From a virus, in the IMG/VR virus record IMGVR_UViG_3300010885_061583, positions 1 through 36,284 of that record: DNA of 36,284 nt; one strand, given 5' to 3'. Positions within the stretch are counted from its first letter, which is position 1. The number at the start of each line of letters is the position of its first letter. Under the pieces are notes generated by a model. The model made no database searches. It was given only the letters and a program-made list of their open reading frames with translations, and was not told where the DNA came from. Made by a program: the position numbers and the translations under genes. Below, one piece after another: positions 4,724-36,284 of this stretch.

Positions 4724-5389
4724 TTAAGAAGCCGAGCCTTTATTGTTTTGAGCGAACTCAACAAATTTGTAAAACTCAGCACGAGATTGATCCTTGTTAT
4801 CTAAAAATGCTCCAGACATACGAGCAGTTCTCATAGTAGAATCATGCTTAATGCCTCGATTAGAACAACAGGTATGATTAGCTTCAATCATAACTGCTAC
4901 ACCATTATTCTTTTCACATACCATATTAATATGCTCATGTACCTGGGCTGTCAAGTTCTCTTGTACTTGAGGTCTACGTGAAAACCAATCTACAATGCGA
5001 TTAAGTTTCGATAACCCAAGCACTTTACCTGACTTAGAAGGAATATAAGCTACGTGTGCCACACCAGTAAAGGGTGCGTGATGATGCGAGCACATCGAAA
5101 CAACTTTAATATTATTCTGACAAACGATACCGTCATACCCATCAACGTTATCAAAAGCAGTAACTTTAGGAGGATCGGTGTAACAGCCCATCGCTAAATC
5201 AGTTACAAAAGCCTTTGCTACACGCCTTGGTGTATCAGAACTATTAGGGTCGTTTCTCCAATCAAAACCAAGAGCATCTAAATACGCTTCATATGCCTTA
5301 GCACCATTTTCAATTAACTCATTAATCTCATCTGGAGTATGAGGGTTGTTATGATTAGCGTGTTGTAATTTCTTTTTATTTCTTAGCAT
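4724..5389 (-). CDS. folE: GTP cyclohydrolase I (FolE)
   Basis: FolE converts GTP to dihydroneopterin triphosphate, the first step of both folate and 7-deazapurine (preQ0) synthesis. The 221-residue sequence shows the family pattern: TPRRVAKAF near 53-61, [12 protein letters not shown] at 98-109 with zinc ligands C100 and H103, a [19 protein letters not shown] segment at 126-144, and NHTCCSNRG at 171-179 with the third zinc ligand and the conserved turn. The length is normal and nothing essential is missing. It starts 3 nt after the gp32 stop, so it is probably cotranscribed with gp32. In a phage that also has QueF and a DpdA-like enzyme, its likely role is supplying 7-deazaguanine precursors for DNA modification rather than folate. 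Confidence 0.95.
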
Positions 5390-5392
5390 AAA

Positions 5393-6316
5393 TTAGAGAC
5401 TTGCAAGAAGTTCTTTAAGTTTGGCGTCCGTGTCATCAACAGCCGGCTTTTCTTCTTTAACCTCAACCTTAGAGATAGAAGGCTCGGTTGTTGAAGTCGA
5501 CTCTTTAATACCAGCGAAGATACTATCAAGTGCATCGTTCTTCTTAACGGCTGCAGGAGTAGGAGCTGTATCCTCATCCTCTTCTTCAACAGACGCAACG
5601 TCCTGAACGCAGAAGAAATGCTGATCGAGCATACGCTGCAATTCAGCAAAGGTCTTTGGTTTATTGAAACTATCAAGCTCATGGGCTGATTCGTAGATTG
5701 CATCAATTTTCTTAGCGTCGATACCTTCAAGCTTAGAAGGAGACATAAACTTCGAAGCCGAATAAGTTACAAATGCTTTCGAACCACCCATGCCTGTACG
5801 AGACTCGCACTTAATCTTTAAAGAGCAGCCTTCAGCAATATCAAAGATCTTAACTCCGAATTCATCAGAATCATCTCCGTCAATAGCAGAGTTAATGATC
5901 TTAGCCAACTCCTTGCCGTAACGAATAGCTTTAACTTTACCTTCGTTTTCAGGATTGGAAGGATCTGAAACAATATAAGCGTTAACAAACCAGTTCTCTT
6001 TACGGGTAATAGGTTTAATCTTTTCTTTATCTTCAACAGAACCTGTGTTGTAAGTCTTCAATACATACTGATCGATAGGGCACTGTTCACCGTAAGTAGA
6101 AGGACAGAGGGTAGTAACAAATTGCCCGGTGCAAATACTATTCCAAGAGTGGTGATAGTAATGATGCATTGTGCATTTCGGGTCAGTGACATTAGGTACA
6201 AGTCGTACAATGTAGGACTTACCGGGTTCAAACTTCATAATGTCTTTGTAAGAATTGTTATTCTTATTTGACAGTGAGGCCTTAATTTCGTTAAACATAT
6301 TTTTAGTGAATGTCAT
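5393..6316 (-). CDS. gp32: Single-stranded DNA-binding protein gp32
   Basis: This 307-residue protein coats ssDNA in replication, recombination and repair. It has a basic N-terminus for cooperativity, an OB-fold core and an acidic C-terminal tail that recruits partners. The T4-like NPENEGKVKAIRYGKEL segment lies near residues 122-138. The final KLKELLASL tail follows an Asp-rich linker and mirrors the T4 DDLLNDL end. T4 gp32 binds zinc through H64, C77, C87 and C90. The matching region here, CPSTYGEQCPID at 71-82, keeps two cysteines but has Asp in place of the last, so the zinc site is altered or uses C62 or a nearby His. No Shine-Dalgarno is seen; a CCAAATA element lies at 6322-6328. The gp59-like gene is upstream, as in T4. 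Confidence 0.93.
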   Translation of the reverse strand: MTFTKNMFNEIKASLSNKNNNSYKDIMKFEPGKSYIVRLVPNVTDPKCTMHHYYHHSWNSICTGQFVTTLCPSTYGEQCPIDQYVLKTYNTGSVEDKEKIKPITRKENWFVNAYIVSDPSNPENEGKVKAIRYGKELAKIINSAIDGDDSDEFGVKIFDIAEGCSLKIKCESRTGMGGSKAFVTYSASKFMSPSKLEGIDAKKIDAIYESAHELDSFNKPKTFAELQRMLDQHFFCVQDVASVEEEDEDTAPTPAAVKKNDALDSIFAGIKESTSTTEPSISKVEVKEEKPAVDDTDAKLKELLASL

Positions 6317-10261: not shown

Positions 10262-11206
10262 CTACTGACCCATTGCTTTTTTTGTATAATATTTTGTATT
10301 ATACAAAACTGGTGGCAGCATATCAAAGGAGGTTGCCCGGGTTGGATTAATATCTAAAGAGCCTCTCCTAGAGTAGAGCAAGGTAACGCAACATGATTCT
10401 ACTTCAGGGTACTTCATAATTTCGGTATAAAGCTTCTCAGCACAAAACTCATGAAACTCGTTAACCTCTCTTAACGAGACTATTTGCTTAAAAAGTGTTT
10501 CTGGTTTGACCACACAATCAAGCGTATTAATTGAAATGTATGCTGCACCGGTATCTTTCTGCTTTGTATGTCTACAGCGGGATCTAAGAGCATTAGTAAA
10601 AAATTGATTCTTAAATAAAGCTTTATCATTTTTTATACTATAACCATAAGGGCTAAACTTAACTCTTTCAAACTCTAAATGGTTTTTTTCAGCATTGTAG
10701 TCATCAATAACTATATGCCCTAAATCAGCACCTAAAAAAGTTTGAAAATCAATATAACCTGCCATAGGAAATATACCGCATGCATCATCTCCTGATTTAA
10801 AAAATTTAACATCTACGTCTGTTTTAAGGGCTTCCTTAAGATCTTTCCGGACCTGGTCTTCGTAGTTAGCAACAGCTTCATCTACAGTAGATCCCATTTT
10901 ACACATATCAAATGTATTAAGATAAAGCTTAGCTGACTTTGACTCAACCATAAACTCGGAGTCAGAAGAATAGGTGTACTTTAAAGTGCCTGCAATAGGT
11001 GCACCATTCTCTAAAAGGAAAGTAGCTTCATGACAGTGCCAAGTGTCATAGCCAACGAATTCATCTCCTTTAATATCCCAGCCGTCTCGTGCTAATTTAC
11101 GAGGCATAGGGTTAAGTAGTGTTGGGTCAAATTGCTCGGTATAGACCGCATAAGATGCGGATGAACCAAGCGTTTTAGATGCAATATCGGTTAGGTTTGT
11201 GCTCAT
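10262..11206 (-). CDS. queF: QueF, NADPH-dependent preQ0 reductase (long form)
   Basis: QueF reduces the nitrile of preQ0 to the aminomethyl group of preQ1. The 314-residue sequence has the long, two-fold tunnelling architecture of E. coli QueF. The substrate motif ESKSAKLYLNTF lies at 88-99. The catalytic Cys is C211 in ALRSRCRHTKQKDTG, with the paired acid D218. A FHEFCAEKLY motif lies at 251-260 and a YSRRGSLDINPTR motif at 278-290. Every hallmark is present, so it should be active. It overlaps the upstream kinase gene by one base. In a phage with a DpdA-like enzyme, preQ1 is the likely base put into DNA. Confidence 0.96.
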   Translation of the reverse strand: MSTNLTDIASKTLGSSASYAVYTEQFDPTLLNPMPRKLARDGWDIKGDEFVGYDTWHCHEATFLLENGAPIAGTLKYTYSSDSEFMVESKSAKLYLNTFDMCKMGSTVDEAVANYEDQVRKDLKEALKTDVDVKFFKSGDDACGIFPMAGYIDFQTFLGADLGHIVIDDYNAEKNHLEFERVKFSPYGYSIKNDKALFKNQFFTNALRSRCRHTKQKDTGAAYISINTLDCVVKPETLFKQIVSLREVNEFHEFCAEKLYTEIMKYPEVESCCVTLLYSRRGSLDINPTRATSFDMLPPVLYNTKYYTKKAMGQ

Positions 11207-13139: not shown

Positions 13140-14654
13140 TCAATCTCCAAATAAATCAAATAAATCCGTTTGAACTTCTTTACCAATTCGAGGTATTCTC
13201 CATCCAATTGCATCATAAACAGCTTCGATAGGTGGTACAACAATTTTACCGAACATCTTATCGTAGTCAATCTTAATTTCGTGAAATTCTTTCGGATACT
13301 CACTACTAAAACCTACTGCATCTAAACCGTAAGGGTTCTTCATAGCATAAAAAAACTTAATCTTTTGCCCAGAGGTAATCTTTTCGTACTTTTTTTGTAT
13401 ATTCATCTTCTCTAAGAGAAAATTGTAAGCTAGAGCAGCTTTAACGTGACAGGGTGTACCTTTGTTAAATTTATGTAAAGAAGCTTCAGCAGAATATTTT
13501 TCTAATTCTTTAGCCGCTTTACGAAAAGCAGCTTCAGATATATCAAGCGTTTTAAAATGGTCATAAGCTTCACGAAATACCTCGTTAGTTTTTTTTACAT
13601 CCTTTGAAAGAAAAGCTGTATCAATAGTCTTCTTGATAAGAGCTTTAACCTCTTTCGGTGTTGTTGATCGAGCTAACTCTACTCCTACGTATTTAAACTT
13701 ACTAGTAGGAACGCCCTCTTCATCAAGGATATGAAGAATATAACGCTTCTTCATTAAGAATGAACCTACGTCAGCAATAGCTTCACGCTTAAACTCAAAT
13801 CTTGGATCTGCAGAGTTAAGATCAGTCTTAGCCCAATTAATAATCTCTTTGTTGAGATGATCTCCCATTGCATCAACAATCTTATGCACCTCTGGAGTAA
13901 TAACATTATCAATAGTAAGCGGTATATTAAGCTTAGTAAGAATCGGTTGAATGGTGGTATAAAGCGAGTCGGTATCTCCTGCCAGGATTAAAGACTCAGT
14001 TACCCCGAACTTCTCTTTAGCCCATTTATCAATAATAGCGGCTCCAGCCTTAGCAACGGCTTGACCTGTAAGAGTAATAGACGAAGCGTTATCAATATCC
14101 ATAAACGCTGAATGTTTATTAGCAAACGTACCGTAAATAGAGTTGAGAAGAATCTTCAACGTATATTGCAGCGTATCGAAGTATTGAATCTGAGCGACGG
14201 TTTCATTATCTTTCTTCTTTGTCTTTTTAAGCTTAATCATCTCATTACGAGCATAAACTCGCTCGTCATAGATGCTATTAATCAAATTAGGACAAACCCC
14301 TTTAAACTTTTGAGAGTAAAGAACACCTGCTTTAGATAGAGCTACATTTTCATCTTTTAAAAACGTCCTAAGTTTATCAACAGTCACTTTAAATATGCCA
14401 CCTGACTCAAGTCTAATCTCTACATCTTTGTCGTATTCAGGATCACCTGTAACAATTTTACCAAGTTTAGTCTCTGAACCAATGTTAAGAGTAATAATGG
14501 TATTAGTATACAGAGAGTTAACGTCAAACGATACAATAGCTTCTTTAAGACCTCTTTCAGGGTCTCGTACAAAACCACCCTCTAAAGACTCACGATCTGT
14601 TTCATTCTTAAAAGTAGGTATGATGTATCCTTGTTTTTGTGCCTGTAGCGTCAT
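13140..14654 (-). CDS. gp43B: DNA polymerase family B, C-terminal polymerase part (gp43B)
   Basis: This 504-residue protein is the polymerase half of a split T4-type gp43. Motif A is SFDVNSLYTNTI at about 42-53 with metal ligand D44. Motif B KILLNSIYGTFAN is at 167-179, and motif C AGDTDSLY at 225-232 carries D227 and D229. The C-terminus ends VQTDLFDLFGD, a clamp-binding peptide like the T4 gp43 SLFDMF end. Motif A reads SLYT where most family B enzymes have SLYP. It starts at ATG 14654, overlapping the gp43A stop as ATGA. The exonuclease domain is in gp43A, so the two products should assemble. Together the parts total 848 residues, near the T4 length of 898. Confidence 0.94.
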   Translation of the reverse strand: MTLQAQKQGYIIPTFKNETDRESLEGGFVRDPERGLKEAIVSFDVNSLYTNTIITLNIGSETKLGKIVTGDPEYDKDVEIRLESGGIFKVTVDKLRTFLKDENVALSKAGVLYSQKFKGVCPNLINSIYDERVYARNEMIKLKKTKKKDNETVAQIQYFDTLQYTLKILLNSIYGTFANKHSAFMDIDNASSITLTGQAVAKAGAAIIDKWAKEKFGVTESLILAGDTDSLYTTIQPILTKLNIPLTIDNVITPEVHKIVDAMGDHLNKEIINWAKTDLNSADPRFEFKREAIADVGSFLMKKRYILHILDEEGVPTSKFKYVGVELARSTTPKEVKALIKKTIDTAFLSKDVKKTNEVFREAYDHFKTLDISEAAFRKAAKELEKYSAEASLHKFNKGTPCHVKAALAYNFLLEKMNIQKKYEKITSGQKIKFFYAMKNPYGLDAVGFSSEYPKEFHEIKIDYDKMFGKIVVPPIEAVYDAIGWRIPRIGKEVQTDLFDLFGD

Positions 14655-15685
14655 TCTCCGGTTACAATCGAAACTTTACCTAAAGCTCTTTCAAAGTTTG
14701 TACATCCTTTATAAGACAGCAATCGAATAATCTTCAAGTAGTTTAACTTCTCTTCAAGCTTACGGAGTAGATCAACGTCCTGAATATTGTAGTCTACAAA
14801 GTTTTCCCAATCAGTTTCAGATAGAGATGAAAGATTCGTAGCGTTAATAGCAAGTTTACCTTCACCAAGTTCATACTCACAGATATAGTTAAGAGAAAAA
14901 GATTCGCGATCTCCTTTAGAATACGTCTTGTAAATTTCCATGTAGTCTAAACAACTAACACCCGAAATATACCAGCGTCCTACCTCTTTACCAAACTTAG
15001 CAAAGTTCTCTCTATAGTGCACCTGGCCAACGGGGGACAACTGCTTAATGAAGTCTTCTCCAAGTAAATTCTTAGCACGATTGATAATATACGGAATATC
15101 AAACTGCTCAGTGTTCCAGCCAGTTAAGATATCAGGTGGATCCTTTTTCCAAAAATTAACAAACCTCTCAAACAACTCACCTTCTGTTTTGCAGCAATAG
15201 TATGTAACATTGTCAAGCTTGGGTTTGTAGTCATCTCTAAGACCCCATGTATGAATTTTATTACTGAGTGTATCAAGCACTGTTATAAGATTCACCGGGT
15301 CTTTGGCGTACTTCGGGATGGGGAACGCACCCGGAGAATACGTCTCAATATCAATAAAAAAAACCTTAAGAGGTAACCTACTAAAGTCTTGATCGTGCAC
15401 TTGCTCTTTAAACCTATCAACAAGGAACTGCTGATCTACGGCCAGATTACCAAACAATCGAGGGTTCTTAGTTTCCTGTACAAACTTAGTACGTTCAAAG
15501 GTATTTCTAAATGTATATTTCTTAAGAGGTGTTTTAAAAATAGAGGTAGCGTCCTTACCGTCTTTGTGCTCTGTAAAGAGATAAGGGGTAAACGGAACTT
15601 CTGTATCAATACGGTGTCCGTCATCAGTCCAAGTCCTTAAAAAGACAGTACCTTCTCGTGGGTTATATGATGCGTTTCTATACAC
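14651..15685 (-). CDS. gp43A: DNA polymerase family B, N-terminal and 3'-5' exonuclease part (gp43A)
   Basis: This 344-residue protein holds the N-terminal and proofreading domains of gp43. Exo I is FIDIETY with D112 and E114, Exo II is GWNTEQFDIPYI with D196, and Exo III is YNIQDVD with Y299 and D303. The exonuclease is therefore intact. It ends with FERALGKVSIVTGE just before TGA. In unsplit relatives this segment continues into the LQAQKQGYIIPTF stretch that begins gp43B, so the break falls in the connecting region without lost sequence. The start is GTG at 15685, 14 nt after the upstream stop; no in-frame ATG lies nearby. The break could be natural or a one-base sequencing deletion. Confidence 0.92.
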   Translation of the reverse strand: MYRNASYNPREGTVFLRTWTDDGHRIDTEVPFTPYLFTEHKDGKDATSIFKTPLKKYTFRNTFERTKFVQETKNPRLFGNLAVDQQFLVDRFKEQVHDQDFSRLPLKVFFIDIETYSPGAFPIPKYAKDPVNLITVLDTLSNKIHTWGLRDDYKPKLDNVTYYCCKTEGELFERFVNFWKKDPPDILTGWNTEQFDIPYIINRAKNLLGEDFIKQLSPVGQVHYRENFAKFGKEVGRWYISGVSCLDYMEIYKTYSKGDRESFSLNYICEYELGEGKLAINATNLSSLSETDWENFVDYNIQDVDLLRKLEEKLNYLKIIRLLSYKGCTNFERALGKVSIVTGE

Positions 15686-20449: not shown

Positions 20450-21091
20450 ATGAGTTTAGAATCTATTATACACAAACAGCGCTACGACGTAGTTCAACAT
20501 AATGTTGACTTTTTAAATAATAAACTATATCTTGAATTTGGTACACATCATGGCGCATCTATGCTTGAGTATTATAGTCTATATAAGGAGTTCGATATAA
20601 AATCTTTTTTTTATGGATTCGATTCATTTCAAGGATTACCGCCCGAGCCAACTGATACTTTAAGTCATAAAGTATGGGAACCAGGTGATTTTAGTACAAA
20701 TAGTAATATTAACCCTGAACTTCTTAACAAACCAGGGTTAAAAATTGTTGATGGTTGGTTCTGTGATACACTAACCGATGATATTGCAAAAGAATTTGGG
20801 GATTCTAAAATTGGATTATTACATATTGATTGTGATATATATACTTCTACAATGCAAGTATTAGAGTTTATTGTAAAAAATAAATTACTAGTAGATGGCT
20901 CTATTGTAGTTTACGATGATTGGGGTGGTTGGCGTCAGGCAGGGTTAACAGAAGATCAACAGTATGATATAGGCGAAGGCCGTGCACATCGTGAGATTTG
21001 TGAGAAATATAATTTAAACTTTGAATTAATTAATAAGGTTGTACCTGCAACAGATTTCTACGAAATTGCGACATTTATATACAGAGCTTAA
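20450..21091 (+). CDS. TylF/MycF-like O-methyltransferase (macrocin O-methyltransferase family)
   Basis: This 213-residue protein is the only plus-strand gene. It matches the TylF family of metal-dependent sugar O-methyltransferases. The SAM loop YLEFGTHHGASM is at 27-38, and a GFDSFQGLP motif at 56-64 is typical of the family. LLHIDCDIYTSTM at 123-135 gives the acidic metal site and VVYDDWGGW at 153-161 gives the paired Asp. Family members methylate sugars on macrolides; related enzymes in capsule loci methylate polysaccharide sugars. It lies convergent to the class II aldolase, sharing a TTAA stop overlap, and is fronted by an exact late promoter motif. Reverse orientation inside an otherwise uniform cluster suggests it arrived or is regulated separately. 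Confidence 0.9.
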   Translation: MSLESIIHKQRYDVVQHNVDFLNNKLYLEFGTHHGASMLEYYSLYKEFDIKSFFYGFDSFQGLPPEPTDTLSHKVWEPGDFSTNSNINPELLNKPGLKIVDGWFCDTLTDDIAKEFGDSKIGLLHIDCDIYTSTMQVLEFIVKNKLLVDGSIVVYDDWGGWRQAGLTEDQQYDIGEGRAHREICEKYNLNFELINKVVPATDFYEIATFIYRA

Positions 21092-21744
21092 ACTAATATA
21101 GACTGTCTATATATTTCTTTTTGATCGGTTTTAATAGTCTGAACACTCAAAGAGTCTAGGCTATTTGTTTTTACGAGTAATTTTGTACCTAAAAAAATTT
21201 CTGCTGATTTTTCACATATTTCACTTGCAAATATACATTGTTTATATGAGTTAGCAGCGCATATTATACCGTGATTTTCTAACAAGATTACTTTTGGAAA
21301 ATGCTGTTCAATTTCTATAAAATTTGTAACGCTATATTTAATTCGGTTAAGTAAGTCATCTCCTGGCATTGCGTACGGCACTATACAAGATCTCTCACCA
21401 TTATATACTACTTGATCGGGAAATAATCTTATTTGAGCAAATTCTTTAACAAAATCTGAACATAATATCTTTAATGTGTTTGTAGGATGAGTGTGAGCAA
21501 TAAAATTAATGGAAGGGTGTTCATATAGCCATGCGTGAAACCCTGTCTCTATACTTGGCTGTTTATCACTACTATCAATTTTTTGGCCTCTATTATCACA
21601 TAGTACAATATCATTAATTGTAAGTACTCTCATATCAGATCCACTAGCTTTAATCGCGAATCCGCTATTTGTTCTTTCTGATACATTTCCTTCAGCCCCT
21701 ACTACAAGCCTTGAAACGCTAGATGCTAGCTTTATTAAATTCAT
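21088..21744 (-). CDS. Class II aldolase/adducin-family enzyme
   Basis: The 218 residues fit the class II aldolase fold, whose members cleave or epimerise sugar phosphates (for example L-fuculose-1-phosphate aldolase). The motif GNVS is at 19-22, IKASGSD at 31-37 and SIETGFHAWLY at 64-74. Zinc ligands are H84 and H86 in HTHP and H158 in ENHG. All zinc-binding residues are present, so it should be active. It lies last in the HAD-GDPD-GT61 run, 2 nt from the upstream gene, and shares the stop tetranucleotide TTAA with the convergent TylF-like gene. A role in making or salvaging a deoxysugar precursor is inferred; the substrate is not readable. Confidence 0.9.
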   Translation of the reverse strand: MNLIKLASSVSRLVVGAEGNVSERTNSGFAIKASGSDMRVLTINDIVLCDNRGQKIDSSDKQPSIETGFHAWLYEHPSINFIAHTHPTNTLKILCSDFVKEFAQIRLFPDQVVYNGERSCIVPYAMPGDDLLNRIKYSVTNFIEIEQHFPKVILLENHGIICAANSYKQCIFASEICEKSAEIFLGTKLLVKTNSLDSLSVQTIKTDQKEIYRQSILV

Positions 21745-21746
21745 TA

Positions 21747-22724
21747 TTAAATGGTAGCACCTGTTAATTCAGTATCAACTATTTGATATGTGAATTTAGC
21801 ATTCTTAAATTGATTGATAATTTTTCCATTATTAACAAGATGGTTATATTCCCCAATAAATTCAGAACCTACTATATAAACAATTACTTCTTTACACTTA
21901 CCTGATATATAAATAAAATTTTTCATGAACGTGGATCCCCATGAGCATATTAATTTTTCGCAATTACTAATCATTTTAATTAGTTGAACCTCATTAAGCT
22001 CAGAAGGTTCAACTAACTGTAAATTATGTTTATTGCAGAAGTTACGTGCTGTATCAATACTAATTGCTCCCATTGAGGAAGATATACAAGACCCGTAATG
22101 TTTTAAAATAGCTATATTTGTTACATTATCGTTAATATTATATTCATCCGGAAGAGTATAATCAAATATATACTGCTGCAGGATTTCTGATACACTATCC
22201 CGTATTGATGTACTCTCAAAATAGCTATGTAAAGTATTAGGTATTATGGTAATACTACGAAATTTGTAAATAATATCATGTTCAAGAAATATAATTTTTG
22301 TCTTTATAACACCGATTTGCTGAAAGTGTTTGATAATATCATGCATACCTTTTTGCGATCCTTGGTATAATGCTATTGTTTTACCCTCATATATATTAAG
22401 ATGATTAATATAATTCGTTAGTATACTAAGTATTCCTGCATATCCATGAATAGATGCAGGAAAAGCAGTTATAAACGGTATAATGTCTTCATCAATAAAT
22501 TCTGCGCGTTGGTTATTTTGTTTAATATAATTTGAAATCGGTCCCGCATCTTGATAACTTCCATCACCTATTAGGTACAACCAATCATTCGAATGCTGTA
22601 TAGTGTCGTAACTATCTGTAACACCTAAACACGCATATCCTTTTCTCACACAGCTATAATTTATAAAAAAGAAAGCATTATTGTGAGGTAATAGCTCAAT
22701 ATAATCTGTTGTGTTGTTGCTCAC
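21747..22724 (-). CDS. GT61-like glycosyltransferase, second copy in the island
   Basis: This 325-residue protein starts with GTG at 22724, overlapping the GDPD-like stop as GTGA. Its C-terminal part resembles GT61 (DUF563) enzymes. An IAILKHYGS strand at 204-212, a segment with NLQLVEPSELNEVQLIKMIS at 234-253 and the glycine-serine donor loop LICSWGSTFMKNFIYIS at 258-274 correspond to the 'YVSRR' and 'GAIGGGL' regions of the first copy at 28608. The usual Arg pair of YVSRR is missing (HYGSC instead), so it is divergent. It may be a glycosyltransferase with a different acceptor or an inactive relative. The match is moderately sure. Confidence 0.6.
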   Translation of the reverse strand: MSNNTTDYIELLPHNNAFFFINYSCVRKGYACLGVTDSYDTIQHSNDWLYLIGDGSYQDAGPISNYIKQNNQRAEFIDEDIIPFITAFPASIHGYAGILSILTNYINHLNIYEGKTIALYQGSQKGMHDIIKHFQQIGVIKTKIIFLEHDIIYKFRSITIIPNTLHSYFESTSIRDSVSEILQQYIFDYTLPDEYNINDNVTNIAILKHYGSCISSSMGAISIDTARNFCNKHNLQLVEPSELNEVQLIKMISNCEKLICSWGSTFMKNFIYISGKCKEVIVYIVGSEFIGEYNHLVNNGKIINQFKNAKFTYQIVDTELTGATI

Positions 22725-23164
22725 ACTTTAACATAATCGGTACAGACACCATATACATAGTTAATATGTTTAAACTCTCGCATATCCGACTCTGACAGAA
22801 GTGGAATTATACAGTTAGTATTAAGTGTTGTAGTTAGGTCGTGTACCCATAAATGTCCAGTACTGGTAATAATGTACGGGTCAGCGGTATGACAAAAGTA
22901 TTTTGAACCCACAATCTTTTTTAATTCGTATACTGTTTCAATATTCTTGCAATGAAGCCACAACCTTTCTTTGCGTAAATTGATCCATGTATTAGAAACT
23001 TCGTAATCTGGCGTGTCATGACCGAGCCAAAACTTATTATTTATAAACCTAATATCTATCTCAACATCGTAACCGAGTTGTAGAGCGCAGTCTATGTAGG
23101 ATGGACGATTCTCTTTTGACTCAATAGGGCCTATTATATTTCCTCTATGAGATATAATCTTCAT
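22721..23164 (-). CDS. Compact GDPD-like phosphodiesterase
   Basis: The protein has only 147 residues, against about 240 for usual glycerophosphodiester phosphodiesterases. The N-terminal motifs are intact. HRGN at 6-9 gives the catalytic H6-R7, KENRPSY at 17-23 matches the family 'PENT' motif, and VEIDIRF at 34-40 gives the metal acids E35 and D37. LGHDTP at 47-52 supplies the general-acid H49. The end YGVCTDYVKV matches the family's final 'TDYP'-type strand, so the middle of the barrel is shortened rather than the end lost. It could cleave a phosphodiester in a glycan or lipid. ATGA and GTGA overlaps couple it to the HAD and GT61-like genes. Confidence 0.75.
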   Translation of the reverse strand: MKIISHRGNIIGPIESKENRPSYIDCALQLGYDVEIDIRFINNKFWLGHDTPDYEVSNTWINLRKERLWLHCKNIETVYELKKIVGSKYFCHTADPYIITSTGHLWVHDLTTTLNTNCIIPLLSESDMREFKHINYVYGVCTDYVKV

Positions 23165-23454
23165 ATTTCATCAATTCTTAGCGTTTTATCATCAACAAAA
23201 AGATCATAATACGGTTTATCTACTTTTAGTTCGCTATATTTTGCGCCCCATTCTGCTAACTGGTTTTTTGTTAATTCATACCAATCTATTTGTTTACGAC
23301 TACCTCTCGATGTCCAATAAACAACTGTATTGCCTTCATCATATAACTTATTAATTTTTTCAATATTTTCTTTTATTGGAATTGCTTCTGCGTATTTTCT
23401 ACTATGCGGGCTCGTGCAGATTGTTTCATCTATATCTACATAGATAATTTTCAT
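23161..23454 (-). CDS. Minimal HAD-family phosphatase
   Basis: This 97-residue protein is a capless HAD enzyme. Motif I is DIDET with nucleophile D7 and general acid D9. Motif II is YWTSRG with T48 or S49, the lysine motif is in KVDKPYYD near 77-84, and motif IV is FVDDKT with D88 and D89. Small proteins of this type occur in capsule and LPS loci, where they remove phosphate from sugar phosphates. It begins the four-gene subcluster HAD-GDPD-GT61-aldolase behind an exact TATAAATA motif and couples to the GDPD-like gene through ATGA. All catalytic motifs are present. The substrate is unknown. Confidence 0.85.
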   Translation of the reverse strand: MKIIYVDIDETICTSPHSRKYAEAIPIKENIEKINKLYDEGNTVVYWTSRGSRKQIDWYELTKNQLAEWGAKYSELKVDKPYYDLFVDDKTLRIDEI

Positions 23455-23467
23455 ATTGTATATAATA

Positions 23468-24937
23468 TTATTTATAATTTACTATAGGTAATGGCAAGTT
23501 TAAAATAATGAATGAGATATAATCATAGTAAGAATTAGATTTAGGTATATTTTTATTAAAAATAAAATCTACTAATTGATATTCTTTGAACGTAAATTTA
23601 TAAAATTTACCTACTACTTCTAATTCGTATTCTAGTTTTACCTTATTGAATATCTCTAATATATTATCTATATTATACTTTCTATCAACTAAAACTTCTA
23701 AACTGACAGACTCCTCCTTACTTAAATCATCAACTAAAACAGTGTCATACGAAAAAAATCTAATTATTACATCAGCATATTTTTTTTGTGGTAATATATG
23801 AGTGTAATAATCTTCCTCTCGCTTAGCTATTGAACTTAAGACTTGCTGTATTGTATAACCTCTTTCATTTACATCTCTTTTAACCTTCCATTTTGTTTTA
23901 AGAGAGCGCTCAGTGTCCATAAAGATTTTTAAATCATATATAGATCCTTGATTGATATATAAACTATGTAACCCGCAAACGATTAAATTATCTGATGAAT
24001 TAACGGGCTGCGATGTAGTAAACTTACCAGAATCGTGATTATAATCTACTTGATATATGGTATTGCCCATTTTTAAATTAAAAACATCGCTTTGCATTTT
24101 GGTTATATGGTTTGCTGTAGGGTTTAAATGTGTTATTGTTTTCCAACTATCATCTGATCTTTCCCATTTATGATATCTATCGCCTTCAAGTACTACAGAA
24201 TTACAAAACAATTTTTTTAATATATTACTTAGAACGCTCTTACCTGCACCAGAGTCTCCACAAATAGCTATAGTATTACACTTTGATAAAATAAAAGAAT
24301 ATTTTATATCCTTAAGTTCGTATCGTATATTTTTGCTAGTTAAATGATAATACAAGAGTGTTTCAGAGACATTTCCATATGTTAATATTAAATGTTTAAT
24401 ATTTTCAAATATACTAAAGTAAAGATTCATTGCCGAAGAAGGACCATAAGCAAAAGCATCACATAAATGTGGATCTTTAGGTTTTAATAATTTACTATTA
24501 TCTATTTTACTATCGTGCGGTACGGTAATTACATCACTTAGCTCGTCAAAGAAGTCTAGATTCTCAAGAGAAATATCTGGTCTATATCTAACCACAAGAT
24601 CATATTCCTTACCGGTAATTTGTTCGTTTATGCATTTAAGAGTGTTCAATTTATATAGTTTAACCCAATGATTAATCGTGTTATTTGATGCTCTATCATT
24701 AGTGTATAAAATATTTGATTCTGTTATCACTGATATAGGAGACAATATATCAGTTATTTGTTTAAAATCTTTTTCTTCTTCAATTAAGTTAAAATATTTG
24801 TCTTGATTATTTTCATCTTTAGTTACATGTAAGTAAACATCTACCTTACTATACTTTTTAAGTAGACTTTCTTTTATATACTCTACATTAATAGTATAGT
24901 TTCTCAGATAACCTGCAATTAAAAGCGCAACTTTCAT
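23468..24937 (-). CDS. Fusion of glycosyltransferase-like domain and PRK/uridine-kinase-like P-loop kinase
   Basis: The 489-residue protein joins two domains. Residues 1-215 resemble small glycosyltransferase-like proteins (MKVALLIAGYLRNY at the start and YDLVVRYRPDISLEN at 112-126). From 222 a P-loop kinase follows, with Walker A GDSGAGKS at 227-234 and EGDRYHKWERSDDSWKT at 251-267. Then come IYQVDYNHDSGKF at 294-306, CGLHSLY at 321-327 and the lid KRDVNERGYTI at 353-363. These are marks of the phosphoribulokinase/uridine kinase family, where the Asp/Arg segment binds substrate. A further 90 residues of unclear type close it. The order suggests a phosphorylation step tied to a transferase step. 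Couplings are ATGA upstream and a promoter-like TATAAATA at its end. Confidence 0.82.
   Translation of the reverse strand: MKVALLIAGYLRNYTINVEYIKESLLKKYSKVDVYLHVTKDENNQDKYFNLIEEEKDFKQITDILSPISVITESNILYTNDRASNNTINHWVKLYKLNTLKCINEQITGKEYDLVVRYRPDISLENLDFFDELSDVITVPHDSKIDNSKLLKPKDPHLCDAFAYGPSSAMNLYFSIFENIKHLILTYGNVSETLLYYHLTSKNIRYELKDIKYSFILSKCNTIAICGDSGAGKSVLSNILKKLFCNSVVLEGDRYHKWERSDDSWKTITHLNPTANHITKMQSDVFNLKMGNTIYQVDYNHDSGKFTTSQPVNSSDNLIVCGLHSLYINQGSIYDLKIFMDTERSLKTKWKVKRDVNERGYTIQQVLSSIAKREEDYYTHILPQKKYADVIIRFFSYDTVLVDDLSKEESVSLEVLVDRKYNIDNILEIFNKVKLEYELEVVGKFYKFTFKEYQLVDFIFNKNIPKSNSYYDYISFIILNLPLPIVNYK
23469..23476 (-). promoter_or_regulatory. T4-type late promoter before the HAD-GDPD-GT61-aldolase subcluster
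   Basis: TATAAATA on the minus strand is an exact consensus match, located 14 nt before the HAD ATG at 23454 and overlapping the last codons of the upstream fusion gene. This is the largest gap for many kilobases in the island. It would permit separate late transcription of the four downstream genes. Confidence 0.5.
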
Positions 24938-25830
24938 TCTAGTAGTTTATCAAAACATTTTATATTTATATCTTGCATCCCTTTAATAATTTCTTTAAGT
25001 TTTGAATTAGTAAAAATTTTATTGAAATAATATTCGTAGTTATCAGCTACATCTTTTACTGTTTGTGCAATATTATCATACTTTGACCATACAATGTATT
25101 CCCCATAAGGAATTTTTTCTTTTAAAGGTACATCTTCACTCACTACTATAACTCCATTAAGTAGAGCTGGTAATACTCTTAATTCTTCAAATGTATGATG
25201 ATAATCGGTTTGGTGAACGTTTATCAATATTTTTGCACGCTTATATATATCATAAAGACAATCGTTTGTGTAGCAGTTACTTATTGACGTATGCTCAACG
25301 CTAAGCTGTTTCAGGTAGTTTAATATCTTTAATCTTCTCTGATTTGAATTATCGGTAAACAGTGTGATAATGTTTTTTCTTTCTTGTGAAAAAAAGTTAT
25401 ATGCAAAGAGTAGCGGTGATATGTATATATTTTTATCTAAATATTCTTTAAATAAACTATTTGTTGATAAGTTATATATATTAGGCAAACTATACTCTAT
25501 AACATAATCGAGGCTGTTGTAGTAATTAAAATTATCTACTCGTATCAGATACGTACCGTTATCGTAGGGTACATTGCCGTATATTAATTGCTGCACGGAG
25601 CGACCGCCCACTTTAACTAATGTGTGTTCACATTGTATATCAATTTTTATTGTTTTATTTGTATTATTAAAAGTGGGGCTGTAGTTACCTACTATAACAT
25701 TAATACAGATATTATTTTTAGCTAACCACGCTTTAAGTAAATTGACGGTGTAATTATAATACTCTTGTATTATAACGTTGTAATTATAATCATATACTAT
25801 AACTGAGTCTTTAACTTGTTCAATTACCAT
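24934..25830 (-). CDS. GT-B type glycosyltransferase, 298 residues
   Basis: The C-terminal half matches the donor-binding domain of GT4-like enzymes. A DIYKRAKILINVHQTDYHH stretch at 194-212 leads into TFEELRVLPALLNGVIVVSE at 213-232, where the FEELRVLPALL helix resembles the 'EGFGLVVLEAMA' type sugar-nucleotide loop with altered residues. The first 150 residues are divergent and rich in Asn and Tyr. It is shorter than full GT4 proteins (about 370), so the N-terminal domain may be reduced. It overlaps its upstream neighbour by 7 nt and its downstream one by ATGA, within the long operon starting at gp47. It would add a sugar to an unknown acceptor. Confidence 0.72.
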   Translation of the reverse strand: MVIEQVKDSVIVYDYNYNVIIQEYYNYTVNLLKAWLAKNNICINVIVGNYSPTFNNTNKTIKIDIQCEHTLVKVGGRSVQQLIYGNVPYDNGTYLIRVDNFNYYNSLDYVIEYSLPNIYNLSTNSLFKEYLDKNIYISPLLFAYNFFSQERKNIITLFTDNSNQRRLKILNYLKQLSVEHTSISNCYTNDCLYDIYKRAKILINVHQTDYHHTFEELRVLPALLNGVIVVSEDVPLKEKIPYGEYIVWSKYDNIAQTVKDVADNYEYYFNKIFTNSKLKEIIKGMQDINIKCFDKLLE

Positions 25831-26588
25831 TGATCTGTAGTATTTTCAGTTCTTTGATGAGCTCTTTTTACAAAATAAGTAGGGGTTGTTGAGTTTACAA
25901 TATCAACAGTATGACAATTATAATACTGATCAAGATTGCTTATGTTGCCGTCTATGTCGACATTGATATAATTGTTTAATTCCCATAATATTCTTGCTAA
26001 ATATCTTTCCGATACCTCTCGTTCTACACTTCGCTGTATAGTTAGTTGCTCAAGATAACCTAGTAGTTGATGTACTTTTACAGTTGCAACAATAAAACTA
26101 TTACACCAACAAAAGGTGATTTTATCTAGATTATTGTTTAGTCCTAAACTCTCTAAAATAGCAGTTGAGGCTTGCTCAAATAAACCGTCTTGATGGAATG
26201 AATTAATAGTGCATGCTGTTGTATTTTGTTTGTTTAAGATATTAAAATCATATTTGTTTTTAAGTACAAAAGTATCTTGCGTGCATACAATATACTTGTA
26301 GTCGTCTAAAATATTATTATCTATTAGATATCTCATACCAACTCGATACGCCCCTATTTCGAATTTACAGTTAATATTATTTGTTAATAGTATAAGTCGA
26401 TCGCTCTGTTCTAATGTCTGAAAAACATCGATAGTATAATTAGAGTTATTATCGACTACTACAATTAGGGATTGAGGGTAATATTTTCTAATATTCTCTG
26501 TATAATACTTCAAATAAGTAGCATGACCTCTAATATATTTGTGTGCTATAATAAAAACTATTTTATCGTTTACGTCAATATTTTCCAT
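25824..26588 (-). CDS. Putative GT-A glycosyltransferase-like protein, 254 residues
   Basis: The N-terminus (DKIVFIIAHKYIRGHATYLK, then SLIVVVDNNSN at 40-50) has the first strands of a GT-A nucleotide-sugar fold. Later, IVCTQDTFVLKNKYD near 99-113 takes the place of the metal-binding DxD region, but with QD in place of the usual acidic pair. An Asn-rich middle and a HTVDIVNSTTPTYFVKRAHQ C-terminus follow. No other family mark is visible. It lies inside the glycosyltransferase operon, overlapping both neighbours by a few nt. A glycosyltransferase is the best reading; low motif conservation leaves the possibility of an inactive or different enzyme. Confidence 0.5.
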   Translation of the reverse strand: MENIDVNDKIVFIIAHKYIRGHATYLKYYTENIRKYYPQSLIVVVDNNSNYTIDVFQTLEQSDRLILLTNNINCKFEIGAYRVGMRYLIDNNILDDYKYIVCTQDTFVLKNKYDFNILNKQNTTACTINSFHQDGLFEQASTAILESLGLNNNLDKITFCWCNSFIVATVKVHQLLGYLEQLTIQRSVEREVSERYLARILWELNNYINVDIDGNISNLDQYYNCHTVDIVNSTTPTYFVKRAHQRTENTTDQW

Positions 26589-27382
26589 TTATTTGATTTT
26601 GTTATGTTGTATTTTTTAATAATATAATTGTACTGATTAGCGACATCTTTATAAGATGACCCGTATTCAGTAATTAATTTATCATTCGGAATTATCAACT
26701 TGCCGCCATGTGTTATGTGTAAGAACACATATTCATTAACACATTGAAAATAACCACACTCTTTAACATTACTTGAAAATAGTTTATATACATTATATTG
26801 CTCGCAAAAATACTGAACATCGATGCCCTCAATAGATCTATATGTTTTATCTTTAAACGTGCTTAATATGTGTATTAAAACCTCCCGTTTCCAGATGGAC
26901 GGGTTCACATTGTATATGTAATTCTCAGGTTTTGTTTGCTTAACAAGGTATAACCTATTTTTATAGATTTTATCCGTAAAAATGTCCCGCTGGTTTATAT
27001 TATTCTCAGACGTTACGTCTACTAAAATACTATTTTTATCGATAGCTGCATATTTTAAATCAACCCGGTCCCAATTGTGTTGCTGCGCTAGTTTAATTAT
27101 CTTAGATATACTATCTTCATGTACACTAATAACAATATCTATATCGTGTGTTAATAATATGTAATCATCATTAATCTGTAATAAACAGCTCAGTAGTCTC
27201 GTTGCATAAGTATCTTCATCATTGTAAAATATAACTCTATCGTATTGTTTAATAATATGATCTATATTATGTGTCGGTTTATTAATAAACAGGGTATGTT
27301 TTCCGCCATTACAGATATGATCGGTTTGTATTTCAAGAATATCTAAATAGTCTGTATGACTATAAACTGTGAAGTTTAGCAT
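26570..27382 (-). CDS. Putative GT-A-like glycosyltransferase, 270 residues
   Basis: The protein contains a LLTHDIDIVIS stretch at 76-86, in which D80-I-D82 looks like the DxD metal site of GT-A enzymes, preceded by a DRVIFYNDEDTYATRLLSCL segment. A NVNPSIWKREVLIH stretch around 164-177 resembles the acceptor region of small galactosyl- or capsule-type transferases. No family can be named with certainty. The gene overlaps its upstream neighbour by 7 nt and its downstream one by 19 nt, in line with a cotranscribed cluster. The function is inferred from one motif and context. Confidence 0.5.
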   Translation of the reverse strand: MLNFTVYSHTDYLDILEIQTDHICNGGKHTLFINKPTHNIDHIIKQYDRVIFYNDEDTYATRLLSCLLQINDDYILLTHDIDIVISVHEDSISKIIKLAQQHNWDRVDLKYAAIDKNSILVDVTSENNINQRDIFTDKIYKNRLYLVKQTKPENYIYNVNPSIWKREVLIHILSTFKDKTYRSIEGIDVQYFCEQYNVYKLFSSNVKECGYFQCVNEYVFLHITHGGKLIIPNDKLITEYGSSYKDVANQYNYIIKKYNITKSNKWKILT

Positions 27383-28608
27383 ATTTTTATTTTTTTAAAT
27401 TTTTTCATATTAATATACCACGGGGAGTTTAATCCTTCATCTAACTTTTTAATGTTTTGTTTAAGTGCTGTAACCGTATCATATTGAATATCATTATTCC
27501 AGCCAGCAACTATAGATTTTGTATATGATATAGTAACTGTATCGTTATTAATTGCAATAATCTCGCCTACGATATTATCTATTGACACTCTCATAAATAG
27601 TTTAAATTCATCATTACTCTCATGATACGTATCATTAAAAGGAGTGTAGTTAACAAGCTTAAATGAATATTCAAAACGTTTGTTAATATCGAGAAAACCT
27701 GGAGAGTTTAAAGATATAAGTTTACAACTGTTATTAGAGTATACCATGTTGCATAGCCCTCCCCCTATAGCGCCGATAACATGACGAGCTCTAGCAAATA
27801 AATGTATTTTTTCTATAGTGGTAAGGTTTTCAGTAAATACTTCTAAATACTTATTTTTTTGTAAATAGTCTACTAATTTGTCTTCATTCACTAACCGACG
27901 TCTTGTTGTATAGTTGGTACCCATGTTTGATAAATTACCGTGCACCCAACTTCTTCTTGATACATATATATTGCTGGCAGTGCCTGGAGCATTACTGTTT
28001 CGTAGTACCCGTTCAGTGATTGTATTATATAGTTCATAAACTTCTCGTCGAGGTGGTAAGTTAGAATCAATACCGTGTGTATATGAGTCTGAAATATAAA
28101 GGTCCTTATAAACAGTATCATTTTGAACTATTTTAATATCTTGTTTTTTAATATTAAGTAGTTCTAACATTTCGTTAACAAAATTATACTGAATATTCTT
28201 TGTGCTATTAGGAAAATTCATTAATAGTTTTAGTTCCGGGGCCGTCTTACGTAAATACAGATATGATACTAAATACGGTAAAGTATGATATACAAAGTGA
28301 TAGTAATTATCTGTATTATATATGAAAAAGAAACAAGGATCTTTATCATATAGAGTTATATTTTGATTGGTAAATTCGGCTGTCGATACTGGTCTAATAC
28401 TCTTTAATGACATTACTTGCTCATTAATAAGATTGTACATTTCATTAGTGTCTTTAGAGTACGCTAAAATATTAGGATAATATAAATTAGATCCAGTAAA
28501 TACTACAGATTTAAGAATGTATATATTAATTTCTCTACCGTTTTCATCTATAGGTAAAAAATTAGCTTTACTTTTTATAGAATGTATATCGTTGATAGTG
28601 TATACCAT
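27376..28608 (-). CDS. GT61-family glycosyltransferase (DUF563-like)
   Basis: This 410-residue protein shows the GT61 pattern. NYYHFVYHTLPYLVSYL at 101-117 is the family 'NYYHWL' helix, NIYVSRRS at 213-220 gives the Arg pair and RRRLVNEDKL at 236-245 the next motif. FARARHVIGAIGGGLCNMVY at 271-290 is the donor-binding Gly loop. Members of this family add xylose, GlcNAc or other sugars to glycans and proteins. Unlike the second GT61-like gene at 22724, all key residues are present, so it should be active. The C-terminal 100 residues are additional and may bind acceptor. It is part of the operon with 1-nt gaps and small overlaps. Confidence 0.88.
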   Translation of the reverse strand: MVYTINDIHSIKSKANFLPIDENGREINIYILKSVVFTGSNLYYPNILAYSKDTNEMYNLINEQVMSLKSIRPVSTAEFTNQNITLYDKDPCFFFIYNTDNYYHFVYHTLPYLVSYLYLRKTAPELKLLMNFPNSTKNIQYNFVNEMLELLNIKKQDIKIVQNDTVYKDLYISDSYTHGIDSNLPPRREVYELYNTITERVLRNSNAPGTASNIYVSRRSWVHGNLSNMGTNYTTRRRLVNEDKLVDYLQKNKYLEVFTENLTTIEKIHLFARARHVIGAIGGGLCNMVYSNNSCKLISLNSPGFLDINKRFEYSFKLVNYTPFNDTYHESNDEFKLFMRVSIDNIVGEIIAINNDTVTISYTKSIVAGWNNDIQYDTVTALKQNIKKLDEGLNSPWYINMKKFKKIKIC

Positions 28609-28609
28609 A

Positions 28610-29404
28610 TTATACCCACCCTTGATCAGGGTGCATTAAGTACTGATGAACATTGATAGCGTTACCTCTTAAGAGTGTAGCCCATATGCTGCAGTTACCT
28701 GTATGTGTAACAAGATGTTTACATTGAGATACTATACTCGTTACACTTAAAACTCTTTGTGCAAACTTATGTCTTTGATCAGGACTTATTACATGCTGTA
28801 AAGCTATACTTCTATTGCTATATATGCATGGCATTTCTTCAAAGAAGAACGAGTTTTTGAAATTTTGCTGAAACTCATCTCTAAATTCCATCTCATCAGT
28901 TTGAATAAGAAATTTAATGTGTTTATTTTTATTGTAAATTTGTTGACATTTAGTAAAAAATTCAGCATAGGTTGCAATCCCTGTTTCAGATAATTTGTCG
29001 TTGCCGCGATAAAAAACTGAAACTGTATTATCATATTCAATATTATATTTCTCTTCTAATTTTTTATTATATGCTTTAATTGTGTCACTTAAACTAAAAT
29101 ACTTGTGTATAAACGGTGTTATATTTTTGAAATCTAATTCATTATATACCGTAAATTGATGATTATGGTGATAATTAATTTCTTTAACAAACTCAATATT
29201 GTAGTTTTGTATTTCTTTAAACAGTATCGGGTTTAAATCTTCATTAGGGTCGTGTGGGTTAATTTTATACGAAGCAAATTGGAAGCTTGAATTTATTGAC
29301 TCTGGTAGGCGTTTGTGAGTGTTAAAAAAATTTATAATATTGTATAGTTTAACTGAACAACACGAAAAAAATCCGGAGTTATGGGTTATAATTAACTCAC
29401 TCAT
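28610..29404 (-). CDS. Putative fucosyltransferase-like GT-B enzyme
   Basis: The 264 residues show the pattern of the GT11/GT23/GT65 fucosyltransferase superfamily. NTVSVFYRGNDKLSE at 126-140 resembles the HxRxGD-type GDP-fucose motif, with the sequence shifted to FYRGND. KFLIQTDEMEFRDEF at 164-178 is the matching 'IATDD' region. VTHTGNCSIWATLLRG in the last third resembles the final 'S-N-x-S-x-W-A' motif. These are partial matches, so activity and donor are uncertain. Its neighbour at 29972-30823 is a GT10 fucosyltransferase, which makes fucose use in this island plausible. Confidence 0.6.
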   Translation of the reverse strand: MSELIITHNSGFFSCCSVKLYNIINFFNTHKRLPESINSSFQFASYKINPHDPNEDLNPILFKEIQNYNIEFVKEINYHHNHQFTVYNELDFKNITPFIHKYFSLSDTIKAYNKKLEEKYNIEYDNTVSVFYRGNDKLSETGIATYAEFFTKCQQIYNKNKHIKFLIQTDEMEFRDEFQQNFKNSFFFEEMPCIYSNRSIALQHVISPDQRHKFAQRVLSVTSIVSQCKHLVTHTGNCSIWATLLRGNAINVHQYLMHPDQGWV

Positions 29405-29405
29405 A

Positions 29406-29975
29406 TTAAATCCCTTTTTGTCCGCCTGGACTTATATTGATAAACACTTTTGTATTTTTATTTACAGAACAAGCTACGGACGGGTGCAACATTGCGCATT
29501 TTATATCTTTGCGCGCTCGTAGCGTCTCGATTAATAGGTGATGATCCCCTCCTCTGTAACTGCCCTCCTTAGCTTCTTGATACTTCTCGTTACATCTTAA
29601 CACCCAGTCACTAACAAATGAAATTACTTCCTCACAATACTTAAAAAATATTAATGCACTATGCGGGGTTTTCATATCGTGTATTCTCGTCACAGCTGCC
29701 ATACCATAATCAATATTGTCCATCTCAATAGGTAATTCGTTAACTACACAGTCTGCGTCTATCCATATAATGTTTTGCTTTTGGGTTTTAAGTGTTTCAA
29801 GAATAATTGATGGCTTAAGTAGGCAGTTATCATTATACGTACCGTTGAGTTTAGGTGTATGTATAAGTATTCGACCACCTAATTTCTCGATTGTTTGTTT
29901 GAGAGTATTCGCTGATTTTTTATAATATAGAGTACTATCATAATCATAGTAAAATGTAGTAAATAATGTTTTCAT
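29406..29975 (-). CDS. GT-A-type nucleotide-diphospho-sugar transferase (small)
   Basis: This 189-residue protein has a compact GT-A fold. The DxD metal site is D73-A-D75 in NIIWIDADCVVNE, and a later RGGDHHLLIETLRA at 141-154 gives the second conserved Gly-Asp-His motif of nucleotide-diphospho-sugar transferase-like proteins (compare PF03407). It is shorter than most but no key motif is absent. It overlaps the GT10 gene by 4 nt and lies 1 nt from the fucosyltransferase-like gene, so it belongs to the same operon. It probably transfers a sugar to a growing glycan. Donor and acceptor are unknown. Confidence 0.75.
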   Translation of the reverse strand: MKTLFTTFYYDYDSTLYYKKSANTLKQTIEKLGGRILIHTPKLNGTYNDNCLLKPSIILETLKTQKQNIIWIDADCVVNELPIEMDNIDYGMAAVTRIHDMKTPHSALIFFKYCEEVISFVSDWVLRCNEKYQEAKEGSYRGGDHHLLIETLRARKDIKCAMLHPSVACSVNKNTKVFINISPGGQKGI

Positions 29976-33791: not shown

Positions 33792-34842
33792 TTGTAGTTT
33801 GAGATATCCTATACAGGTCAATACATTTATCTAATATATCTTTTTTTGGCACGGGTGTATCTAAAAGATTTACAAATTCATGCAAAGCAGTATCAATATC
33901 AATGCTAATTTCATTTAATTCTGTAGCAGATAACTGCACTGATTCAAAAATATTAAAATCTGTACGGACGTGTTTAGGCTTGTATTGATTAAATTTAGAA
34001 AGCATTAAACTAAGCACTTGCTCATTAACGTTTCTATCAACACAAAGACTGACAAAATTATTTGATAGTTCTTCTGAAATATTTTCTAAAGATATTTTAC
34101 CATCTAAAAGATCAGATATTTTAATTTTTTTATGTTTGGGTGTTATATTATTTTCAATTAACTCTAAAGATAAATCATCAGTATTTAAAATTGTAAACCC
34201 TTTTGTTTGTTCTCTATCTCCAAAATCTAATTCATATGGAGAGCCAAGATATATAATAGATTTACCATTGGTATATTTTCTATGATCCCTGCAATGGAAG
34301 TGTCCGGACATAACAAGTTTTGCTTTGTTTAATAATGACACACTTTCTATTCCATGATCACATACTTTATGAGAATTCATTTTAAAATTAAGAATCTCAA
34401 AATGGCCCACTAATACATCACATACAGGTATTTCTTCTAGGCCTATACCCCAAGGACAGAAAGTGTATTTTTTACCGTTGATAGTATGAGATACAAGGTC
34501 TTGATATACCGTTATATTTTTGTAACCGTCGAGAATAGAAATAGAATTAATATCAGATTTATCTTTATAATAACAATCATGATTGCCAGTAATAGCAACA
34601 ATATTATATTTTGACAATATATTAAAGAATTCTCGAGCGCAATGTATTGTATTAACACCAATCTCATGCCGATTGTGAAATATATCACCAGCTATAATGA
34701 TATCTTTAATGTCTCTAAGCTTTAACTCTTTATCAAGCCAACGAGCAAAATCTAAAGCAATGTTGTGCCAAGATTGGGAGTTTTGGTGAACACCTAAATG
34801 TATATCAGATATACAAGCAACTTTATTAGAACTGAATTGCAT
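33781..34842 (-). CDS. gp47: Recombination nuclease subunit gp47 (Mre11/SbcD-like)
   Basis: Gp47 is the metallophosphoesterase partner of gp46. The 353 residues contain SDIHLG at 12-17 (D13, H15), AGDIFHNR at 51-58, TGNHDC at 85-90, VGHFE at 145-149 and SGHFHCRD at 179-186. These five blocks supply the two-metal active site, and none is missing. The C-terminal 130 residues bind gp46 or DNA. The length is close to the T4 protein (339). The ATG overlaps the gp55 stop by 1 nt as TAATG. Its stop lies inside the first glycosyltransferase gene, so it is the last core gene before the island. In T4 gp46 follows closely. Confidence 0.96.
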   Translation of the reverse strand: MQFSSNKVACISDIHLGVHQNSQSWHNIALDFARWLDKELKLRDIKDIIIAGDIFHNRHEIGVNTIHCAREFFNILSKYNIVAITGNHDCYYKDKSDINSISILDGYKNITVYQDLVSHTINGKKYTFCPWGIGLEEIPVCDVLVGHFEILNFKMNSHKVCDHGIESVSLLNKAKLVMSGHFHCRDHRKYTNGKSIIYLGSPYELDFGDREQTKGFTILNTDDLSLELIENNITPKHKKIKISDLLDGKISLENISEELSNNFVSLCVDRNVNEQVLSLMLSKFNQYKPKHVRTDFNIFESVQLSATELNEISIDIDTALHEFVNLLDTPVPKKDILDKCIDLYRISQTTNEH

Positions 34843-36284
34843 TATTCGTTTTCTACTACATATGATCCATCATAATCGGTGTCAAATTTTGTATTCTTTT
34901 GAAAGGGTAATTGACCTGATTCCGTTAAAAGAGAGTATACTTCATTTTGATAACGGTGAATAGTATCATGCTCTTTCTTTTCTTTTTTAATTCTATTTTG
35001 AAATGCTCTATAAGCTACTTTAGTAAAGTAAGAAAAAGGATTATAACCGGAATTACATTTAAATCTTTGGCGTGTTAATGCAGTAATCATTTTAATAATT
35101 GCATCCCCGATCATTTCTTCCTTGTAAGAATTACCCGTTATATGAACGTACTTACCCCTTCTGCAGACAAAAGTACCATATTCAGTTTCAGGGCACCAAA
35201 TTTTACCTGTATATTTGAAAGTGGGTTTATTAGGGTGTTGTTTTTTACCTTCTTGTTTTGCCAGCTTCGAACGATAATCGCCGCCAGGTCTAGGTTTTGC
35301 TCCATGCATATTAATAGATTCTCCACGAACTGTTAATTTAGGCTCTGAAAAAATATTTACTGTGTAATATTCTTTATTACTAAAGAGAGAAAGGTTTTTA
35401 ACTTTTTTTGTTGATGTTGTTAAACCAGCTATAGTACAAAGAGCAATAAAGTTATCTATATGTTTTTTATCTCTTTGATTGTAAGACCAATTTGTAGGGC
35501 CTTTAGTAAAGAATTGTTTTCTAATATGCCCGTCTCCATCGACCATAGCTTTAATAAGTTTAAGGCGTTGTTCTTGTGTTAATTCAAGAATAAACTCCAT
35601 TGATAAAATTTTATCTTTTGCAGCTTTAATAATATTATTAGCAATATCTTTTGTAATTCTAAAGCATTTTATTTCAGGGTTTGTCCAACTATATTCTTTA
35701 TATTTTGCTCCTACTGTTTTAAGAAGCTGTCTAATTTTTTGAGCTTTTGTCCCCTCTTTTTGAAATATTTGCACGCAATGAGTTCGTTTACCATAAACGT
35801 AATTACCTTCTGTAACAGCCCATCCAACAATTTCTACAAATTCATCTGTATATATAGGTTTCTTATCTTTAACGGGGTTTCCTATTAAAATTATATCTTC
35901 CTGTGCTTTAATATATTCAACCGGCTTAATACCGTCTTGTAAAGATACAAATTTATGATTAGGTGTTACTAGGCTGTCAAGACCTTTCATATCAAGTTTA
36001 AACATAAGACCGTTATAATCCCCAACAAATATATCTTTTATCCTACTCCAAACAAGTGTTTTAGTGCTGACGTTATAAGAAAGAATTTTGTCGGTTAATT
36101 GAATATCTTTATATGAAAGCCACCCCCTTTGGGTCAACGCCTCTGTTTGTTCATCAACACAGTAATTGATAAAGTTTTGTGCATAACCAAGCCGGGTTGC
36201 GATTTTTTGAATCATATCAGCTAAATCAGAGGGAATATCTTTACCGCCTTTTTCGTAATAACCGATAATAAGTTGCTCCATCTC
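34842..36284 (-). CDS. gp55: Late sigma factor gp55 interrupted by a homing intein (5' end outside window)
   Basis: Gp55 directs host RNA polymerase to late promoters and works with the clamp. The frame is open to base 36284 and the first visible Met is at 36281; T4 gp55 has about 14 more residues before the same LLQAII helix (here EQLIIGYYEK), so the true start is probably upstream. Numbered from that Met, residues 1-40 are the N-extein, ending LGYAQNFINY. Residues 41-384 are an intein. Residues 385-479 are the C-extein, starting SYKEEMIGDAI and continuing NPFSYFTKVAYRAFQNRIKK, which matches T4 gp55 region 2 ([20 protein letters not shown]). The C-terminus, DYDGSYVVENE, lacks the T4-type LDFLYE clamp-binding peptide. 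Without splicing the sigma factor should be inactive. Confidence 0.93.
   Translation of the reverse strand, partial: EMEQLIIGYYEKGGKDIPSDLADMIQKIATRLGYAQNFINYCVDEQTEALTQRGWLSYKDIQLTDKILSYNVSTKTLVWSRIKDIFVGDYNGLMFKLDMKGLDSLVTPNHKFVSLQDGIKPVEYIKAQEDIILIGNPVKDKKPIYTDEFVEIVGWAVTEGNYVYGKRTHCVQIFQKEGTKAQKIRQLLKTVGAKYKEYSWTNPEIKCFRITKDIANNIIKAAKDKILSMEFILELTQEQRLKLIKAMVDGDGHIRKQFFTKGPTNWSYNQRDKKHIDNFIALCTIAGLTTSTKKVKNLSLFSNKEYYTVNIFSEPKLTVRGESINMHGAKPRPGGDYRSKLAKQEGKKQHPNKPTFKYTGKIWCPETEYGTFVCRRGKYVHITGNSYKEEMIGDAIIKMITALTRQRFKCNSGYNPFSYFTKVAYRAFQNRIKKEKKEHDTIHRYQNEVYSLLTESGQLPFQKNTKFDTDYDGSYVVENE
35130..36161 (-). mobile_element. Homing intein in gp55 with LAGLIDADG endonuclease
   Basis: These 344 residues (41-384 of the precursor) begin with catalytic Cys41 in CVDEQTEALTQRGW, block A. 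Block B is DSLVTPNHKF with T106 and H109. The C-terminal splice region reads WCPETEYGTFVCRRGKYVH and ends ITGN, with Asn384 followed by Ser385 as the first extein residue. The penultimate residue is Gly, not the usual His. A LAGLIDADG endonuclease is inserted between the splicing blocks: VGWAVTEGN at 152-160 and KLIKAMVDGDG at 241-251 are its two helical motifs, with acidic E158 and D248-D250. Both splicing and homing parts look intact. Joining residues 40 and 385 gives a continuous T4-like gp55. Confidence 0.93.

Follow-up and report, generated by a model that had tools for sequence, protein, structure and literature searches.

The gp43 locus and its two reading frames

The window, a linear virus fragment of 36,284 bases from IMG/VR, carries a T4-type gp43 DNA polymerase in two adjacent reading frames, which raises the question whether the phage makes a two-subunit enzyme or whether an ordinary polymerase gene has lost a base. 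The N-terminal and 3'-5' exonuclease portion (the exo ORF) is located at 15685..14651 on the minus strand, has 344 aa with a GTG start and matches PF03104 (E=3e-22), and the polymerase portion (the pol ORF) at 14654..13140 on the same strand has 504 aa with an ATG start and matches PF00136 (E=6e-27). The exo ORF ends with ACC GGA GAA TGA, encoding VSIVTGE before the stop, the pol ORF begins with MTLQAQKQGY, and the TGA of the former overlaps the ATG of the latter in the four bases ATGA at 14651..14654 (minus strand). The overlap at 14654-14651 and the protein sequences on either side of it, as given in a preliminary description, are thus confirmed by the sequence. A mis-called start of the exo ORF was rejected, since the GTG is conserved in the relatives and these carry stops just upstream of it.

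Against PHROG 262 (T4-type gp43) the exo ORF spans model positions 19-355 and the pol ORF 363-850, together covering 19 to 850 with few unmatched model positions at the junction, and therefore no domain is missing.

Comparison of the junction with relatives

Two protein searches of IMG/VR gave 144 loci, 142 of which cover the junction, and all 142 loci aligned across it are in a single frame there (85 distinct junction sequences). Adding a profile search of IMG/VR plus bacterial and archaeal genome contigs widened the set to 240 loci that span the junction in one frame, with 191 distinct translations. A split at the site seen in the window was found in 0/240 of these, in searches that may omit records very near the window and could overlook a closely related contig divided in the same way. 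Two further loci, from Methanobrevibacter, have an in-frame alignment gap at the junction and no split like that of the window. The genome contigs yielded only relatives of about 24-33% identity, none of them with an informative split, and the exact junction 20-mer has no match in IMG/VR.

The closest relatives are unsplit gp43-type family B polymerases from uncultured T4-like phages (IMG/VR; among them loci L004, L002 and L003), which are about 90% identical at the protein level (86-92% for the pol ORF) and have the same neighbouring genes, but they have a continuous 848-aa frame, whereas in the window a single base is missing at residue 344. Near relatives encode Thr-Gly-Ala-Met-Thr-Leu-Gln across the junction, and in every close relative Gly and Met are separated by the three bases of an Ala codon (GCN). 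The window reads ACC GGA, two bases, ATG; this two-base remnant at 14655..14656 (minus strand), one base less than the Ala codon, is the site of the loss. In the whole-gene DNA alignment the window has 2546 bases against 2547 in G001, G003 and G004. With a base of the Ala codon missing, the window acquires the terminal Glu of VSIVTGE through the shift. The two halves had been described as contiguous in the same way as in unsplit relatives, which is correct in that no domain is missing, but the residue before MTLQ in the relatives is Ala and not Glu. An added A, also proposed, does restore a single open frame, but the relatives carry Gly-Ala-Met and have no Glu-Met junction.

The ATGA split is not a conserved gene arrangement, and a split shared by related genomes, as would mark a natural one, is seen at this place in none of the 240 loci. 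Of the two options offered in the preliminary description, a one-base deletion is clearly favoured over a coupled two-subunit polymerase by the 240 unsplit relatives, and a private deletion, either an error in the consensus or a recent mutation, is very probably the best explanation of the split. The one-base loss, within the conserved Gly-Ala-Met stretch of an ordinary T4-type gp43, is private to this one metagenome contig, and as the missing base belongs immediately ahead of an in-frame ATG with an A after it, its absence creates a TGA overlapping the ATG and mimics a coupled gene pair.

Translation signals at the junction

ATGA or GTGA overlaps are also present at five further gene junctions of the window, which makes translation of both halves conceivable, but unsupported, and these junctions count in favour of the alternative that the exonuclease and polymerase are made separately by translational coupling at the ATGA. 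The ATG of the junction is the Met of the unsplit protein and is kept in all close relatives. The nearest Shine-Dalgarno-like sequence, a GGAG one base before the ATG, is also present in some unsplit relatives, which speaks against a coupled two-subunit polymerase; with the ATG, and in some cases the GGAG, already there in unsplit relatives, no part of the junction has the appearance of a recently evolved start signal. Should the deletion be a real mutation, ribosomes halting at the TGA could begin again at the ATG that overlaps it.

Slipping back by one base at the TGA would bring a ribosome into the pol frame, and a programmed -1 ribosomal frameshift could in that way join both frames into a full-length gp43. 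No X_XXY_YYZ slippery heptamer precedes the stop (14651-14665), in agreement with what had been noted earlier, the RNA fold around the junction is no better than that of shuffled sequence (z = 0.27), leaving the pair of a heptamer and a downstream stimulatory structure absent, and the relatives need no shift. Programmed frameshifting was consequently rejected and is extremely improbable.

Comparison with other divided polymerases

In the Aeromonas phages 44RR and 25 the T4-type polymerase likewise comes from two adjacent genes, and the 43A and 43B proteins of phage 25 co-purify with polymerase activity present (PMC2988022). That the halves in the window reassemble like gp43A and gp43B of phage 25 is nevertheless unlikely, as the split is unique to this contig and differs from that of the Aeromonas phages in its site and in what lies between the genes. 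The Aeromonas 43A has 498 aa and the cut of 44RR maps about 140-150 residues downstream of the cut in the window. In the structure that AlphaFold2 predicts for the unsplit L004 (mean pLDDT 87), residue 344, which corresponds to the cut position, lies inside a helix of residues 337-351, a further point against a two-subunit enzyme. The Aeromonas halves are separated by intercistronic sequence (44RR) or by a homing endonuclease gene (25), whereas the window has a 4-base overlap with nothing inserted between the two ORFs. A coupled two-subunit polymerase, if present at all, would have to be a condition that this single lineage reached very recently. We consider it improbable that a viable phage recently split its gp43 at the exonuclease/polymerase boundary by a single deletion, with the ATGA coupling balancing the two halves; if true, this would be a polymerase seen shortly after its gene divided, with no mobile element required.

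Polymerase genes in pieces, as in the window, are also found where PolB is interrupted by inteins, as in Pseudomonas phage MIJ3 and in the relatives L053, L129 and L141. The interruption in these three relatives is near DTDS and consists of intein sequence, and in PolB of MIJ3 a split intein is accompanied by an endonuclease, whereas the cut in the window has neither intein nor endonuclease. Among the related polymerases, L053 (~5000-5430) and L129 (2482-2957) carry in-frame mini-inteins at the DTDS motif, and L131 (3908-4406), L127 (2374-3778) and L141 (1716-3187) have apparent split inteins at the same motif, with an endonuclease-like ORF between the polymerase halves in L127 and L141. In L218 (4345-5346) and L233 (397-1625) the exonuclease part of gp43 contains insertions of about 1-1.2 kb, close to DIE and to the second of the exonuclease motifs.

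Polymerase motifs and selection

The three exonuclease motifs (DIE, GWNxExFDxP and YNxxDV) are present in the window, as are KxxxNSxYG and DTDS, alongside the Pfam and PHROG domain matches. Motif A (DxxSLYP in T4-type gp43) is the exception, reading DVNSLYT where SLYP is invariant in the relatives: codon 50 of the pol ORF (14505..14507, minus strand) encodes Thr, against Pro in 81/81 distinct relatives. The claim that all exonuclease and polymerase motifs are intact accordingly holds for every motif but this one. SLYPS also occurs in the T4 and yeast polymerases (PMC4120765). The Thr is the sole residue of the window, in either ORF, that departs from a column conserved to at least 97%, and a degenerate nucleotide pattern encoding the SLYT form had 0 matches in IMG/VR viral contigs. 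The change is located about 150 bases from the deletion and may be another error, another mutation or a variant that the enzyme tolerates; the loss of this Pro also argues against a two-subunit enzyme.

Pairwise dN/dS against relatives is about 0.03 for the exo ORF and 0.05 for the pol ORF, with saturated dS, so the values are informative only for constraint, and dating the split by them was dropped. The strong purifying constraint on both halves, which would also suit two separately made subunits, indicates that the frame either remained intact up to a very recent time or continues to be used. The dN of the window is raised relative to that among relatives, 2.45-fold in the exo ORF, 1.46-fold in the pol ORF and 2.35-fold in uvsX, and since uvsX is likewise raised the elevation is not specific to gp43.

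A decaying gp43 copy, with its function relaxed or lost, could account for both the frameshift and the Pro to Thr change in motif A, these being two private changes close together with one of them in a motif invariant among relatives, and the raised dN of the two ORFs points the same way, although that of uvsX does too. The motif A Pro is, however, the only deviation at the highly conserved columns, internal stops are absent, and a lytic T4-type phage needs its polymerase, with the proviso that the window is a 36-kb fragment and a second copy may lie elsewhere. Decay is very unlikely; the selection data exclude a pseudogene of long standing, though a break of recent date is compatible with them.

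Nature of the one-base loss

A private one-base deletion being the preferred reading, the chance that it is an error in the assembled consensus is about even, and a real, recent frameshift mutation is a possibility that we hold more tentatively. No other frameshift was found in the conserved genes of the window, and most of its other predicted genes were matched in the 13 related contigs fetched. The absence of frame changes in the other conserved genes points to a single event, and a sequence-poor contig was rejected on the same ground. A chimera or recombination breakpoint at the junction was also rejected, as the identity to relatives is flat across it. Isolated breaks occur elsewhere in gp43 in at least three contigs of the relatives, namely L036 (a frameshift), L043 and L221 (one stop each), and from these a background of about 2% broken copies is expected in such data. 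The description of a phage pan-genome tool notes that gene calls are commonly fragmented by indels that create early stops and new starts (PMC8351571).

When all one-base deletions were simulated in the gene of an intact relative, the resulting stop overlapped an in-frame ATG in 111/2538 cases (4.4%), and in 20% such an ATG lay within 30 bases, so the tidy overlap, which can arise by chance, is not strong evidence of design. Three observations count against the deletion: the loss is located outside long homopolymers, it adjoins an in-frame ATG at a chance of only 4.4%, and the ATGA or GTGA overlaps at five other gene pairs indicate that the phage uses such an arrangement. If the deletion is real, the phage would offer a natural test of whether a family B polymerase tolerates a cut in the helix joining exonuclease and palm. 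As it stands, the case is mainly a caution that a single private base in a contig from a metagenome can pass for a two-subunit enzyme, an illusion that a survey of relatives dispels.

Other features of the window

A late sigma factor gene (gp55-like) at 34842-36281 on the minus strand is interrupted by an intein at about 35130-36161. The intein extends from Cys41 to Asn384, is followed by Ser, and is inserted exactly between the Tyr and Ser of continuous relatives. The best match of the gp55-like product in a cultured phage is in Synechococcus phage B23 (44% identity), and because the alignment spans query residues 16-431, B23 may share the intein. QueF-like and GTP cyclohydrolase-like genes are located near replication genes, at 10262-11206 and 4724-5389 respectively, which by their predicted products suggests 7-deazaguanine synthesis, perhaps for DNA modification. 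The region 20450-29975 is a poorly conserved gene block containing a glycosyltransferase 61, a member of the phosphoribulokinase/uridine kinase family and unknown genes, and it is absent or of low identity in most of the close relatives fetched.
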